Source: Gemmatimonadaceae bacterium (GTDB taxonomy: Bacteria > Gemmatimonadota > Gemmatimonadetes > Gemmatimonadales > Gemmatimonadaceae). From it: a stretch of DNA of 64,000 nucleotides. The position numbers and the translations under genes are program-made. The first letter of the stretch is position 1, and each line of letters begins with the position of its first letter. The stretch lies in contig JANJUF010000051.1 of NCBI GenBank assembly GCA_024710705.1, forward strand, positions 1 through 64,000, in the 5' to 3' direction. Below, in pieces: positions 3 through 42,044 of the stretch. The notes below the pieces were generated by a model. The model saw only the letters and a list, made by a program, of their open reading frames with translations, was not told where the DNA came from and ran no database searches.

Positions 3-800
3 TTCCTTGACGACTACCTCAAACTCAAGCAGAAGCGCGAGGGACGCGAAAACCGCGGACTGGTGGAGCGCTATAAGCTGGCCGGGCAGATCACCATCGG
101 CCTCGCGCTGGGCTACTACCTCTGGCAGTTCCCGATCAACAACCTGCCCGGCGCCTCCACCACGCTGCCGTTCTACAAGTATGTGCTCATCGTGCCCACG
201 TGGGCGTGGCTCTACCTGCCCTTCGTCACGTTCGTGATGACGGGGACGAGCAACGCCGTGAACCTCACCGATGGGCTCGACGGCCTGGCGACGGGCCTGA
301 TGGCCATCGCCATGCTGACGTTGGCGCTCTTCGCGTACGTGATGGGGCGTGTGGATGCGTCCGAGTACCTCGGCCTCATCTACCTGCGCGGGGCGGGCGA
401 GCTTACCGTGTTCTGCTCGGCGGTGTTCGGCGCGGCCGTCGGCTTCCTGTGGTACAACGCGCATCCGGCCGAGGTCTTCATGGGGGACACCGGCTCGCTG
501 GCCCTGGGCGGTGCCCTGGGGGCCGTGGCCATCCTGCTCAAGAGCGAGTTCCTGGTGCTGATCCTCGGGGGCGTGTTCGTGGCCGAGACGCTCTCGGTGA
601 TCCTCCAGCGCAGCGTCTTCAAGTACCGGAAGGCGAAGCACGGGCTCGAGTATGCCAAGGCCCACCGCGTGTTCCTGCGGGCGCCAATCCACCACCACTT
701 CGAACTCAAGGGCTGGCCGGAGACGCAGGTGGTGGTGCGCTTCTGGATCATCGGGATCCTCTGCGCCTTCGTGGCGCTCTCCACGCTCAAGATCCGGTGA
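3..800 (+). CDS. mraY: Phospho-N-acetylmuramoyl-pentapeptide-transferase (5' truncated by window edge)
   Basis: Open from window start in the frame of ORF 63..800; motifs NAVNLTDGLDGLA, FMGDTGSLALGG and HHHFELKGWPE are typical of MraY; followed by murD. Confidence 0.96.
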   Translation, partial: FLDDYLKLKQKREGRENRGLVERYKLAGQITIGLALGYYLWQFPINNLPGASTTLPFYKYVLIVPTWAWLYLPFVTFVMTGTSNAVNLTDGLDGLATGLMAIAMLTLALFAYVMGRVDASEYLGLIYLRGAGELTVFCSAVFGAAVGFLWYNAHPAEVFMGDTGSLALGGALGAVAILLKSEFLVLILGGVFVAETLSVILQRSVFKYRKAKHGLEYAKAHRVFLRAPIHHHFELKGWPETQVVVRFWIIGILCAFVALSTLKIR

Positions 801-2185
801 GTCGCCCTTTCCGTCCCCTGCCGGAAGTCGCGCGCGGCGGCGAAGTCGCGGTGATCGGGCTTGGGCGGAGCGGGGCGGCGGCGTCGCGGCTGCTCCGCGC
901 GATGCAGGCCGAGGTGTACGCGTCGGACCGCGGGGTGGGCGAGCGCATGGAGGAGACGGCTGCGACGCTCCGCGCCGCTGGCGTGCACGTGCAACTCGGG
1001 TCGCACGATCTGGCGCGTGTCGCGAAGTGCGCCCTGGTGGTGGTGAGCCCTGGCGTGCCGCCCGACGCGCCGCCACTGGCGGCGGCGCGCGCGGCCGGTG
1101 TGCCGATCGTCAGCGAAGTGGAGATCGGCCTGCGGGGCCTGGGCGCCGCGCAGTACATCGCCGTCACCGGGACGAACGGGAAGACCACGGTGACGGCCAT
1201 GCTCGCGCACGTGTTGCGGACGCTGGGCTTGGATGCCGAGGAGGCGGGTAACATCGGCACGCCGCTCTGTGAGATCGCCCTGCGTGACGTTGGGCCGGCG
1301 TGGCTGGCACTCGAGCTCAGCTCCTTCCAGCTGCACGACACGCCGAGTCTCGCCCCCGACGTCGCGGTGTTGACCAACCTCGCGCCCGACCATCTCGACC
1401 GCTACCCCTCGCTCGAGGCGTACTATGCGGACAAGGACCGACTGTTTCGGAACGCGCGCGCCGAGAGCGTTCGCGTGGTGAACGGTGATGACGCCGAGGT
1501 GCTGCGGCGTACGGCAGCGGTGCCCGGCGTGGCGCGCGTGTTCTCGCTGCGGCGTGCCGACGCCGACGCGGGATTCGATGCCACCAGGCGCGAGCTGTTC
1601 CTCGCGGGACAGCGGCTGATGCACCGCGACGAGCTCCCCCTGCTTGGGTTGCACAATGTGGCCAACGCGTTGGCGGCGGCGCTGGCGGTGTGGGCGGCGG
1701 CCGCGGCGGCGCGGACATCGGCAGGGCGCGCCGCCATTGCGGACGGCCTCCGCACGTTCCGCGCGCCGGCGCATCGCCTGGAGCAGCTCGGCGAGCGCGC
1801 GGGCGTGCTGTGGGTGAACGACTCCAAGGCCACGAATGTCGGGGCGGCGCGCGTGGCCATCGAGGCCATGGAGCGGCCGACCGTGTTGTTGCTTGGTGGA
1901 CGCCACAAGGGCGAGCCCTATGCCAACCTGCTTCCGGCACTGCGGGGTCGGGTGACCGCGGTGGTGGCGTACGGCGAGGCGGAGTCCCTGATTGCGGACG
2001 AACTTGGCGCCCACGTGCCGGTGGAGCGGGGCGGATCGTCATTCTCCGAGGTCATCGCGCGCGCCCGTGCCCTGGCACGGCCCGGCGATGCCATCCTGCT
2101 CGCTCCCGCCTGCTCCAGCTACGACATGTTCACGAACTTCGAAGCGCGCGGCGAGGCCTTCCGGGCCGAGGCGCAGCGCCCCTGA
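797..2185 (+). CDS. murD: UDP-N-acetylmuramoylalanine--D-glutamate ligase
   Basis: GTG start at 797 overlapping the mraY stop, in frame with ORF 200..2185; ITVTGTNGKTTVT-type ATP loop (AVTGTNGKTTVTAML), NDSKATNVGA motif. Confidence 0.95.
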   Translation: MSRPFRPLPEVARGGEVAVIGLGRSGAAASRLLRAMQAEVYASDRGVGERMEETAATLRAAGVHVQLGSHDLARVAKCALVVVSPGVPPDAPPLAAARAAGVPIVSEVEIGLRGLGAAQYIAVTGTNGKTTVTAMLAHVLRTLGLDAEEAGNIGTPLCEIALRDVGPAWLALELSSFQLHDTPSLAPDVAVLTNLAPDHLDRYPSLEAYYADKDRLFRNARAESVRVVNGDDAEVLRRTAAVPGVARVFSLRRADADAGFDATRRELFLAGQRLMHRDELPLLGLHNVANALAAALAVWAAAAAARTSAGRAAIADGLRTFRAPAHRLEQLGERAGVLWVNDSKATNVGAARVAIEAMERPTVLLLGGRHKGEPYANLLPALRGRVTAVVAYGEAESLIADELGAHVPVERGGSSFSEVIARARALARPGDAILLAPACSSYDMFTNFEARGEAFRAEAQRP

Positions 2186-2277
2186 CCGCGGTCGGCGACG
2201 TCTTCCCGCCCACGGGCCGCCCCACCACGCCTGCGCGTGGCGCGGGCGCCGTGCCGCGGGAGCGCGTCCGGTGGCGG

Positions 2278-3417
2278 ATGACCATCGAAGCGCGGCTGCT
2301 GGTGGTGCTCACCGCGACGCTCCTCGTGTTCGGCCTCACGACGCTGTACTCGGCGAGTTCCATCGTCGCCGTGCAGGAAGGGTATCCGAGCTGGCACTTC
2401 CTCGTGCGGCAGCTCATCGGCGTGGCGGTGGGCATCGTCGCGTTCGCGATCCTCGCCAAGTGGGATGCCGACCACTGGCGGGACTACGCGTGGCCGCTGA
2501 TCGCGATTGCGATCTTCACGATGCTGCTCACGATCATGCCGGGCCTCGAGCGATTCGCGCCGCGTATCAACGGCTCGCGGCGCTTCCTGCTCGGTGGATC
2601 CATCCAGCCATCGGAGTTCGCCAAGCTGGCGCTGGTGATCTGGACGGCCATGCTGATCGTGAAGAAGGGCGGGGCCGACGGCCTGCGCCGCCTGACCAAG
2701 GGTCTGATGCCATTCGGACTCATCCTTGGCGTGCTCAGCGTGATTGCCGTGATGCAGCCGGACTTCTCCGTGCCGCTCTTCTATGCGCTGGTGATGGGGA
2801 CGATGCTCTTCGCGGCCGGCGCCCGTATCGGGCACTTCGTCCTGCTCGGCGCGCTCGCCCTCCCGCTGGCGTGGAAGGAGATCCACCGCCTCGAGTACGT
2901 GATGAACCGCATCCTCGGCTTCGCTGGGGCGGATGGGGCGCAGGAGGCGGTGAACTACCAGCTGACGCAGTCGCTGATCGCGGTGGGATCGGGCGGGCTC
3001 TTCGGTGTGGGTTTTGGGCAGGGGCGCCAGCAGTACGGCTTCCTGCCGCTGCCGTACAACGATTTTATCGGCAGCAACATCGGCGAGGAGTGGGGCTTCG
3101 TGGGCATGGCCGGGCTGATCTGCCTGTTCGCGCTGTGGGGCTGGCTCGGGTTCCGCATCGCCAAGCGGGCGCGCAGTCCCTTCACGCAGCTGGTAGCCCT
3201 TGGTATCACCGTGACCACGGTCGTGACGGCGTACCTGCACATCGGCGTGGTGATCGGGCTGTTGCCGACGACCGGGCTCACGCTGCCGTTCGTGTCCTAT
3301 GGTCGCTCGAACATCCTGCTGTCGCTGGTGACGACAGCGATCCTCGTGAACGTCGGGAGCACGGCGGAGCGGGTCGTGGGCTCGGGCGCGTCGGATCCGC
3401 TCGCGGCGCGCCGCTGA
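2278..3417 (+). CDS. ftsW: FtsW/RodA family SEDS peptidoglycan polymerase
   Basis: Probable ATG at 2278 within ORF 1690..3417; multi-TM SEDS protein with NDFIGSNIGEEWGFVG and GLTLPFVSYGRSN motifs; dcw context. Confidence 0.93.
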   Translation: MTIEARLLVVLTATLLVFGLTTLYSASSIVAVQEGYPSWHFLVRQLIGVAVGIVAFAILAKWDADHWRDYAWPLIAIAIFTMLLTIMPGLERFAPRINGSRRFLLGGSIQPSEFAKLALVIWTAMLIVKKGGADGLRRLTKGLMPFGLILGVLSVIAVMQPDFSVPLFYALVMGTMLFAAGARIGHFVLLGALALPLAWKEIHRLEYVMNRILGFAGADGAQEAVNYQLTQSLIAVGSGGLFGVGFGQGRQQYGFLPLPYNDFIGSNIGEEWGFVGMAGLICLFALWGWLGFRIAKRARSPFTQLVALGITVTTVVTAYLHIGVVIGLLPTTGLTLPFVSYGRSNILLSLVTTAILVNVGSTAERVVGSGASDPLAARR

Positions 3418-7932: not shown

Positions 7933-8123
7933 AGACGGAAGACGGAAGAAGGAAGGGTCACAAATATTCCGAATCTGGCTACGGGTGGTGGACAAGTCAT
8001 TGTCCCCCATCCGTTTCCGTTTCCGGGACTGGTCGTCAATGAGGTGTACGGGGGTCCAGGCCGCGCTATATTGCCGGAGCCCCAACGGGCTGTCGCCCCC
8101 TTTTCGTCTCACGTCTTCCGTCT
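7933..8123. repeat. Inverted heptad repeat bracketing the ftsA-ftsZ intergenic region
   Basis: AGACGGAAGACG (7933-7944) and its reverse complement CGTCTTCCGTCT (8112-8123), extended by imperfect heptads on both sides. Confidence 0.8.
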
Positions 8124-21547: not shown

Positions 21548-23950
21548 ATGGCCAGTGTTGCCGAGATCTTCAAGACGATGGACTACGGGCCGGCGCCCGA
21601 GAGCGACGCCGAGGCGCGGGCATGGCTCGCCCGACACGGGGGCAAGTTCGGGCATTTCGTGGACGGCGCCTTCACCAAGGTTGGCACCACGTTCGACGTC
21701 ATCGATCCGAGTACGAATGCGCGACTCGCCAAGGTCACGCAGGGAACCACCAAGGACGTGGACGCTGCCGTCGCGGCGGCGCGAAAGGCCTTCACCAAGT
21801 GGTCCAAGCTCTCGGCCCACGAACGCGCCCGGCACCTCTACGCGCTGGCGCGGATGGTGCAGAAGCACTCGCGGCTGTTCGCGGTGGTGGAGTCCATGGA
21901 CAACGGGAAGAGCATCCGCGAGACGCGCGACCTCGACATCCCGCTTGTGGCGAGGCATTTCTACCATCACGCCGGATGGGCGCAGCTCTTCCCCACGGAG
22001 TTCGCCGGCTACGCGCCGGTGGGCGTGGTGGGGCAGATCATTCCCTGGAACTTCCCGCTGTTGATGCTGGCGTGGAAGATCGCGCCGGCACTCGCGGCGG
22101 GGAACACGGTGGTGCTCAAGCCGGCGGAGTTCACGCCGCTGTCGGCGTTGCTCTTCGCCGAGTTGGCGCACGGGGCCGGCGTGCCGCCGGGCGTCATCAA
22201 CATCATCACCGGCGACGGCCGCACGGGCGCCGCGCTGGTGGAGCACAAGGGCGTGGACAAGATCGCCTTCACGGGCTCCACCGATGTGGGACGCATCATC
22301 CGCAAGGCCACCGCGGGCAGCGGCAAGAAGCTCTCGCTCGAACTCGGCGGCAAGTCGCCGTTCATCGTGTACGATGACGCCGACCTCGATGGGGTGGTGG
22401 AAGGTGTCGTGGACGCCATCTGGTTCAACCAGGGGCAGGTCTGTTGCGCCGGCTCGCGCCTGCTGGTGCAGGAGGGCATCCACGACCGGTTGATCGAGAA
22501 GCTGCGCGTGCGGATGGAGAAGCTCCGCGTCGGCAGGCCGCTCGACAAGGCCGTGGACATGGGCGCGATCGTCGCGCCCGAGCAGCTGGAGCGCATCACC
22601 GCGCTGGTGAGGCAGGGGCAGGACGAGGGCGCCACGATGTGGCAGCCGAGCTGGGGCGTGCCCAAGAACGGCTGCTTCTACCCGCCCACGCTGTTCACGA
22701 ACGTGGAGCCCGCGAGCACCATCGCGCAGGTGGAGATCTTCGGGCCGGTGCTGGTGGCCATGACCTTCCGCACGCCGGAAGAATCGGTGGCGCTGGCCAA
22801 CAACACGCCGTTCGGCCTGGCGGCCAGCGTGTGGAGCGAGAACATCAATCTCGCGCTCGATATTGCGCCGAAGCTCAAGGCCGGCGTCGTGTGGATCAAC
22901 GCTACGAATCTGTTTGATGCCGCCGCCGGCTTCGGCGGATACCGCGAATCAGGCTTTGGGCGAGAGGGTGGCCGCGAAGGGATGTTTGAGTATGTGAAGC
23001 GGGACGGAAGACGGAGGACGGAAGGATCGCGAGCGGTGAAATCCGTGCGCGCGTCGAAACCTTCCAAGGGCACTCCTTCCGTCTCCCGTCTTCCGTCTGA
23101 TGTCGGTGTCGACCGCACCCCCAAGCTCTTCATCGGCGGCAAGCAGGCTCGCCCGGACTCTGGCTACTCTCGCGTGATCCTCGGCCCCACGGGCCAGCGC
23201 GTGGGCGAGGTGGGCGAGGGCAATCGCAAGGACATCCGCAACGCGGTGGAAGCGGCGCATGCTGCGGCCAAGGGATGGTCGCGGAGCACCGCGCACCTTC
23301 GCGCGCAGATTCTCTACTACATTGGCGAGAACCTCGATGCGCGCGCGGCGGAGTTCGCGGCGCGCCTGCGTGCGATGACGGGGGTGACCGCTTCGCAGGC
23401 CAACGCCGAGGTCCAGGCGAGTGTGGCGCGCCTGTTCAGCTACGGCGCCTGGGCCGACAAGTGGGACGGCGCCGTGCACAGCGTGCCGATTCGCGGCGTG
23501 GCACTGCAGATGAATGAGCCGATCGGGGTGGTCGCCGTGGCGGCGCCCAATGAAGCGCCGCTGCTCGGGTTCATCTCGGCTATCGCTCCGCTGATTGCCA
23601 CCGCGAACAGCGTGGTGGTGGTGCCCAGCGAACCCCACCCGCTCTCGGCGACCGATCTCTACACGGTGTTCGAGAGCTCGGACCTGCCGGGCGGCGTGGT
23701 CAACATCGTCACCGGCGCGAAGGACGTGCTGGCGAAGACGCTTGCCGAGCACGATGACGTGGAAGGCATGTGGTACTGGGGCTCGCGCGATGGCGTGAAG
23801 GCCGTGGAGTTCGCTTCGGCGCACAACATGAAGCGCACGTGGTGCCATGCCGGCGCCGTGGACTGGGCCGACGCCAACGAGGGCGAAGGCCGCGAGTACC
23901 TCCGCGAGGCCACGCAGGTGAAGAACATCTGGATCCCGTACGGCGAGTAG
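21548..23950 (+). CDS. Two-domain aldehyde dehydrogenase (ALDH16-like)
   Basis: Start ATG 21548 in ORF 21413..23950, about 800 aa; first domain has LELGGKSP Glu and GQVCCAGSR Cys; second ALDH-like domain (KLFIGGKQARPDSGYSR...) lacks these motifs. Confidence 0.9.
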   Translation: MASVAEIFKTMDYGPAPESDAEARAWLARHGGKFGHFVDGAFTKVGTTFDVIDPSTNARLAKVTQGTTKDVDAAVAAARKAFTKWSKLSAHERARHLYALARMVQKHSRLFAVVESMDNGKSIRETRDLDIPLVARHFYHHAGWAQLFPTEFAGYAPVGVVGQIIPWNFPLLMLAWKIAPALAAGNTVVLKPAEFTPLSALLFAELAHGAGVPPGVINIITGDGRTGAALVEHKGVDKIAFTGSTDVGRIIRKATAGSGKKLSLELGGKSPFIVYDDADLDGVVEGVVDAIWFNQGQVCCAGSRLLVQEGIHDRLIEKLRVRMEKLRVGRPLDKAVDMGAIVAPEQLERITALVRQGQDEGATMWQPSWGVPKNGCFYPPTLFTNVEPASTIAQVEIFGPVLVAMTFRTPEESVALANNTPFGLAASVWSENINLALDIAPKLKAGVVWINATNLFDAAAGFGGYRESGFGREGGREGMFEYVKRDGRRRTEGSRAVKSVRASKPSKGTPSVSRLPSDVGVDRTPKLFIGGKQARPDSGYSRVILGPTGQRVGEVGEGNRKDIRNAVEAAHAAAKGWSRSTAHLRAQILYYIGENLDARAAEFAARLRAMTGVTASQANAEVQASVARLFSYGAWADKWDGAVHSVPIRGVALQMNEPIGVVAVAAPNEAPLLGFISAIAPLIATANSVVVVPSEPHPLSATDLYTVFESSDLPGGVVNIVTGAKDVLAKTLAEHDDVEGMWYWGSRDGVKAVEFASAHNMKRTWCHAGAVDWADANEGEGREYLREATQVKNIWIPYGE
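23003..23097. repeat. Palindromic heptad repeat inside the aldehyde dehydrogenase ORF
   Basis: Left arm GACGGAAGACGGAGGACGGAAGGA (23003-23026); right arm TCCTTCCGTCTCCCGTCTTCCGTC (23074-23097), 22/24 complementary; 47-bp loop; reading frame stays open. Confidence 0.9.
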
Positions 23951-23954
23951 CGGC

Positions 23955-23975
23955 GCCTTCGTGGTGAATGCAGTT
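23955..23975. repeat. Truncated copy of the CACGAAGG-type repeat
   Basis: GCCTTCGTGGTGAATGCAGTT, 20/21 identical to 42031-42051. Confidence 0.75.
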
Positions 23976-41964: not shown

Positions 41965-42044
41965 TTTCACCACGAAGGCACGAAGGGCTCCGTGGGCTCG
42001 AAACCATCTGCTCGCGTCGGAACCCTTCGTGCCTTCGTGGTAAA
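41965..42044. repeat. Palindromic octad repeat between argS and PfkB-family gene
   Basis: ACCACGAAGGCACGAAGGG (41969-41987) and perfect 19-bp reverse complement CCCTTCGTGCCTTCGTGGT (42023-42041), 35-bp loop. Confidence 0.92.

Follow-up and report, generated by a model that had tools for sequence, protein, structure and literature searches.

The palindrome in the interdomain linker of an ALDH16-like gene of a Gemmatimonadaceae bacterium belongs to a genome-wide family of convergent heptamer arrays with a fixed strand polarity; the positions of such arrays are partly shared between related genomes, different words occupy these shared positions, and the word found in the linker usually agrees with the word that recurs throughout the same genome. 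The novelty lies in the way words are exchanged at shared positions, some of them within reading frames. The reading that we favor, at a probability of roughly one half, is that the family consists of genome-wide convergent pairs of heptamer arrays acting as hairpins at gene borders, whose slots are inherited and whose words are rewritten in each species.

The gene lies at positions 21548..23950 (plus strand) of the window, i.e. the whole stretch of 64,000 nucleotides that was analyzed, and encodes 800 aa. The initial annotation had proposed a two-domain ALDH16-like enzyme, and this is borne out by Pfam PF00171 (Aldedh), which matches two stretches of the protein; the best solved relative, the aldehyde dehydrogenase 6MVR (767 residues), which we take to be the ALDH16 of Loktanella, aligns with it end to end (E = 1.5e-292). 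Judged from its sequence, the gene is an ALDH16 by definition, its predicted product joining a catalytic ALDH domain to a second, ALDH-like one. The linker between the two domains harbors a left G-rich arm at 23003..23026 on the plus strand (GACGGAA, GACGGAG and GACGGAA followed by GGA; GACGGAAGACGGAGGACGGAAGGA), translated in frame as RDGRRRTEG, and a right C-rich arm at 23074..23097 on the minus strand (TCC followed by TTCCGTC, TCCCGTC and TTCCGTC; TCCTTCCGTCTCCCGTCTTCCGTC), translated in frame as TPSVSRLPSD, the two being separated by a spacer of 47 nt (23027..23073) that is unlike the spacers of other family copies and is taken as ancestral linker. The near-perfect inversion of the arms (22/24 complementary) and the open frame that reads through both of them are present as first described, and none of 300 codon shuffles of this linker gave a palindrome as good (p = 0.003).

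A search for further copies in the assembly that contains the window (G000; 3.0 Mb in 137 contigs, 87.6% complete) returned 234 exact copies of GACGGAAGACGG, 112 forward and 122 reverse, against none for the reversed-pattern control, thereby revealing a real repeat family; the window by itself holds 9 matches at up to one mismatch where 0.81 are expected. In a 532-kb sample of this genome, partly picked around known copies, 79 arms form 24 opposed pairs in which the G-rich arm comes first in 24 of 24 and the reverse order never occurs. The first 448 kb, whose contigs were picked mainly by size, show the same polarity in 14 of 14 opposed pairs; they contain 41 arms, where the reversed word gives 3. 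Although about 90% of the latter DNA is coding, 31 of its 41 arms are intergenic; the distance between the outer end of an arm and a called stop or start codon is often 0-17 nt, and copies are also found between the tRNA genes of a tRNA cluster (L114). Single arms are common. Intragenic copies are, by contrast, rare: the 532-kb sample has them in 2 genes, so that the family is mainly a feature of gene borders. The two-sided test for intragenic copies left an FtsK gene and, in a sigma-factor-like gene (L112:7856), a single match due to chance, and it misses the ALDH pair because each arm falls in the flank of the other; several further arms were placed inside genes by the gene caller, and most of these look like misplaced start codons. 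GACGGAA arrays hold a stop codon in no frame of either strand. When 120 more genomes sampled from the phylum are taken in, their burst is still confined to G000 and the relative G005. Arrays of three GACGGAA units are nevertheless found on contigs from many other phyla (L061-L095; among them Streptomyces, Tychonema, Omnitrophota, Bacteroidales and Wenzhouxiangella), and in some cases adjoin arrays of further heptamer words (e.g. L090). Searches of the open-access literature by repeat string or by Gemmatimonadetes and palindrome found no description of the GACGGAA family.

For the relatives, whose words escape an exact-run period spectrum because it is too strict, we turned to degenerate palindrome scans and to counts of words. 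A significant linker palindrome (p <= 0.01, codon shuffles) is present in 13 of 26 full-length orthologs, or 12 of 25 when the gene under study is set aside, and the word of the left arm differs from genome to genome: GACGGAA in G000, GACGTGA in G005, AGTYGTG in G015, GGATGAA in G014, AGATGGG in G009 and G016, AGGTGGG in G003 and G007, CTGGGGC in G025, GGAACGC in G033, GGAATGC in G040 and a degenerate AGTTGGG in G011 (p = 0.01), with a longer unit, GGACGGTAAGGGCGGGAA, in G027 and a visible but non-significant remnant in G002 (p = 0.21). The palindrome is missing from the other half of the orthologs, including most of two congeneric clades.

These words are, as a rule, those of the genome at large: the linker word recurs genome-wide in 10 of the 11 genomes tested, the counts having been taken over the same 41 genomes with the linker words of G011 and G027 left out as such. 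Thus GACGGAAGACGG has 234 copies in G000, 58 in G005, 14 in G002, 8 in G015 and at most 5 elsewhere; AGTYGTG has 39 in G015 and at most 3 elsewhere, being absent from G011; GGAAYGC has 28 in G033, 13 in G040 and at most 1 in the others; GAGRTGG has 43 in G009, 39 in G016, 15 each in G003 and G007, 9 in G021 and at most 4 elsewhere; and GGATGAA has 16 in G014 and at most 3 elsewhere. GACGTGA counts 6 copies in G005 versus 56 in G029, a genome without a linker palindrome. Reversed-word controls are near zero except for the reversed GACGTGA pattern, GTGCAGAGTGCAG, whose 173 matches in G021 indicate that this genome has a heptamer word of its own, GTGCAGA. CTGGGGC failed as a genome-wide word of G025, having one copy only, in the linker itself, so that words must also be able to arise locally where no genome-wide pool exists. 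The single copy in G025, the absence of AGTYGTG from G011 with its degenerate linker word, and the higher count of GACGTGA in G029 than in G005 all weigh against the reading that we favor.

The agreement between linker words and genome-wide words lends weight to the strongest competing account, namely that the linker is a permissive site at which the resident array pair of each lineage landed independently and overwrote the existing sequence, nothing being inherited. On the tree, orthologs with and without a palindrome are intermingled, as repeated landing would have it; the sisters G025 and G040, 89% identical in the ALDH16-like protein, carry the unrelated words CTGGGGC and GGAATGC; and G000, G005 and G002 have a register unlike that of the CTGCAG group. 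Against it, six congeners (G015, G011, G009, G016, G003 and G007) have in common, by eye, an outer flank (CTGC|AG...CT|GCCGTC) and a 7-nt register while their words differ, as if a single palindrome had been inherited and its word replaced; in addition, linker length is nearly constant (40-51 residues in all but one readable fused ortholog among up to 40 relatives, the exception being G027 with 60), and scars of insertion were not found. On balance we consider independent landing rather unlikely. For the linker itself, the register favors inheritance with rewriting and the pair G025/G040 favors repeated acquisition.

The linker is one slot among several. The initial annotation had placed the same motif, non-coding, at the ftsA-ftsZ junction, where we indeed find a left GACGGAA-family arm at 7934..7954 (plus strand), 11 nt after the ftsA stop codon, and a right arm at 8109..8122 (minus strand), 13 nt before the ftsZ start codon. 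This slot holds GACGGAA in both G000 and G015, CACGAAGG in G011 and, in G005 (L163, L203), a nested structure of CACAGAGG arms around CGCAGAGG arms around a perfect GC hairpin; no array was found at the slot in G009. The slot behind the ALDH stop codon carries five words in as many relatives (CACAGAGG in G015, CACGAAGG in G011, GTAGGACG in G017, a 10-mer in G027 and GAGGCTC in G021) and plain GC hairpins in G014 and G010. In the window, CCTTCGTGGT stands at 23956-23965, directly 3' of the ALDH stop codon, and is apparently what is left of a CACGAAGG arm; in G011 this slot holds the full CACGAAGG palindrome. The second gene with an in-frame arm is the FtsK gene of G000 (L229, G000:C27; ORF 80-2500, minus strand), whose disordered linker contains a GACGGAA-family right arm (PSVFRLPSQ) together with an octamer arm of CACGAAGG (HHEGTKG); the same linker has a GACGGAG pair in G015 and a GACGGAT right arm in G005. 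An intergenic palindrome of the 8-letter word CACGAAGG at 41969..42041 of the window, with no strand assigned, repeats the convergent architecture of the heptamers, and the orthologous site holds CACGAAGG in G011 and CACAGAGG in G015. Octamer palindromes of CACGAAGG, CACAGAGG and CGCAGAGG in heptamer-like slots and architecture were also seen at L099:11569-11640 and L118:11773-11895, and a literature search found no paper containing these octamer strings. A de novo scan of 2.0 Mb yielded 30 palindromes of period 7 and 14 of period 8, versus 2 and 1 in codon-shuffled DNA. Taken over intergenic slots, those bearing arrays are shared between genomes above expectation, weakly so and for pairs that are not independent (odds 3.5, p = 0.04); the weakness of this signal also tells against the favored reading.

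Species-specific words with a fixed polarity at stop and start borders would also be expected if the arrays were binding sites of a regulator, a protein or an RNA-binding factor, with drifting specificity, site and regulator co-evolving; such a factor was proposed for TAACTGA repeats (PMC4679880). The slots just described speak against it, in that one genome can hold, at equivalent positions, a number of unrelated words with units of 7, 8 and 10 nt, and copies between tRNA genes and in protein linkers do not resemble regulated promoters; we hold this explanation to be improbable.

Even less credit is due to the in-frame insertion of a mobile element, be it a MITE, a REP or one akin to the Rickettsia palindromic elements. 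The high copy number of the palindromic, mostly intergenic family and its recent burst, with 234 copies in G000, 58 in G005 and no more than 14 in any other relative among the 41 genomes, are what such an element might produce; the remaining evidence largely contradicts it. Spacers are not conserved, the longest shared word being 5.96 versus 5.74 in shuffles, save for a few that have a GC stem in common, and direct repeats in the flanks (3.00) are at background (2.83), so that no target-site duplication is seen and transposition was rejected as the origin for want of scars. It follows from the unrelated spacers and the missing duplications that only word, polarity and position are common to the copies and that there is no element body; the frequent single arms and the different words at one and the same site are equally at odds with an element. 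The GC-rich stem (GGCGATGCGG or similar) occurs as an inner hairpin in otherwise unrelated spacers at L101:607-716, L105:12082-12166, L232:2010-2111 and L241:2073-2168. The initial annotation had read the ALDH palindrome as an insertion adding roughly 35 residues between the two domains; that idea did not survive the alignment, as linker lengths are alike in fused orthologs with and without the palindrome and no empty site is seen among them, the linker segment being there at similar length in nearly all relatives. The linker of 6MVR, at the same place and without a palindrome, has roughly 30 residues, about 14 fewer. In G020 (L060) and G022 (L059), two genera within the same family, the ALDH16-like protein is encoded by two adjacent ORFs, split exactly at the linker. 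As far as sequence comparison can tell, the ALDH palindrome does not appear to be an inserted element, a reading that is not supported; the best explanation is that it sits in an old, length-tolerant linker whose sequence it overwrote without adding a block.

Selection on the linker mRNA hairpin itself, e.g. to slow ribosomes between the two domains, is the least credible alternative: the fold is strong (-60 kcal/mol, z = -4.7) and the arms of 13 of 26 orthologs are rewritten yet complementary, but the hairpin is missing in the other half, including most of the two congeneric clades, and the same architecture lies mostly in non-coding DNA.

A copy of the family consists of (GACGGAA)n-GG, a short unrelated spacer and CC-(TTCCGTC)n; copies mostly fill short intergenic regions, with their outer ends near stop and start codons, and can form a single long hairpin, whether as RNA or as DNA. 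For inherited slots with rewritten words, we infer the origin, homogenization and function of the arrays along the following lines. Arrays may arise by slippage, the complementarity of the arms being maintained by template-switch copying across the hairpin; the word would then spread between positions, thereby giving each species a dialect of its own and rewriting old slots. Intergenic copies might serve as transcript-border hairpins, terminator-like or protecting RNA ends, and could be intrinsic terminators to judge from their hairpin potential only. Linker copies would be passengers, tolerated as long as they keep the frame open, presumably because disordered linkers accept any open frame. 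A bolder version, which is conceivable though doubtful, is that trans-acting copying (e.g. templated or oligonucleotide-mediated rewriting) periodically swaps words genome-wide, so generating the species dialects, while what is passed on, in coding linkers as well, is the position, the 7-nt register, the polarity and the hairpin architecture.

Earlier descriptions of heptamer repeats dealt with single genomes and a single, fixed word. Orthologous positions with differing words that mostly agree with the word of the respective genome, two such positions falling within essential-type or enzyme genes, separate an architecture that is inherited from a sequence that is replaced, and provide a handle on how short tandem repeats of bacteria are created, kept palindromic and homogenized. 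They do not only bear on repeat evolution but also on annotation, since palindrome-bearing linkers mislead the calling of genes and insertions.

Rickettsia palindromic elements, the precedent invoked by the initial annotation for a repeat tolerated inside an ORF, have a conserved sequence of about 100-150 nt, are translated in frame in unrelated proteins and act as insertions. The ALDH palindrome resembles them in being a palindromic repeat translated in frame; unlike them, it has only the arm word in common with other copies, and neither a conserved element sequence nor an empty site in orthologs was found. What holds of the original comparison is a real repeat family, one copy of which is read through in frame and devoid of a shared core of that type, and what falls is the inserted element. 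As to MITEs, neither a target-site duplication nor conserved terminal inverted repeats around a core were detected. REP/BIME elements with RAYT transposases (PMC2817692) amount to hundreds of species-specific intergenic palindromes per genome, as does the GACGGAA family; the present copies differ in having no fixed REP core, their arms being tandem heptamers and their spacers unrelated.

Closer cases are found among heptamer repeats. The TAACTGA repeats of Beggiatoaceae, Cyanobacteria and Bacteroidetes (MacGregor 2015, PMC4679880) likewise form arrays near start codons, some of which are read through in ORFs, mostly at protein ends; unlike the GACGGAA family, they are almost only direct repeats (one indirect), keep one word across phyla and contain forward stop codons. 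G-rich heptamers, GGGAATC in Xanthomonas and GGGGA(C/T)T in Nostoc (Rehm et al. 2015, PMC4692102), are genome-wide and over-represented in non-coding DNA, the G-rich strand being the sense strand downstream of stop codons and the antisense strand upstream of start codons, and Xanthomonas has 70-75 close convergent inverted pairs whose type is usually kept between two species. The word GGGNATC, with its runs of three G, can form G-quadruplexes (PMC4692102); GACGGAA, in contrast, has runs of two G only and no GGG tract for a classical quadruplex, and the relatives' words AGATGGG, AGGTGGG and CTGGGGC hold runs of three or more G. The convergent GGGAATC pairs of Xanthomonas are the closest known case, and the GACGGAA family fits that kind, with a tandem 7-nt unit, many copies, enrichment in non-coding DNA and a fixed strand polarity; it departs from it in that one word is kept between species in Xanthomonas whereas here shared positions carry different words in different species, units of several lengths occur side by side and copies lie in protein linkers.
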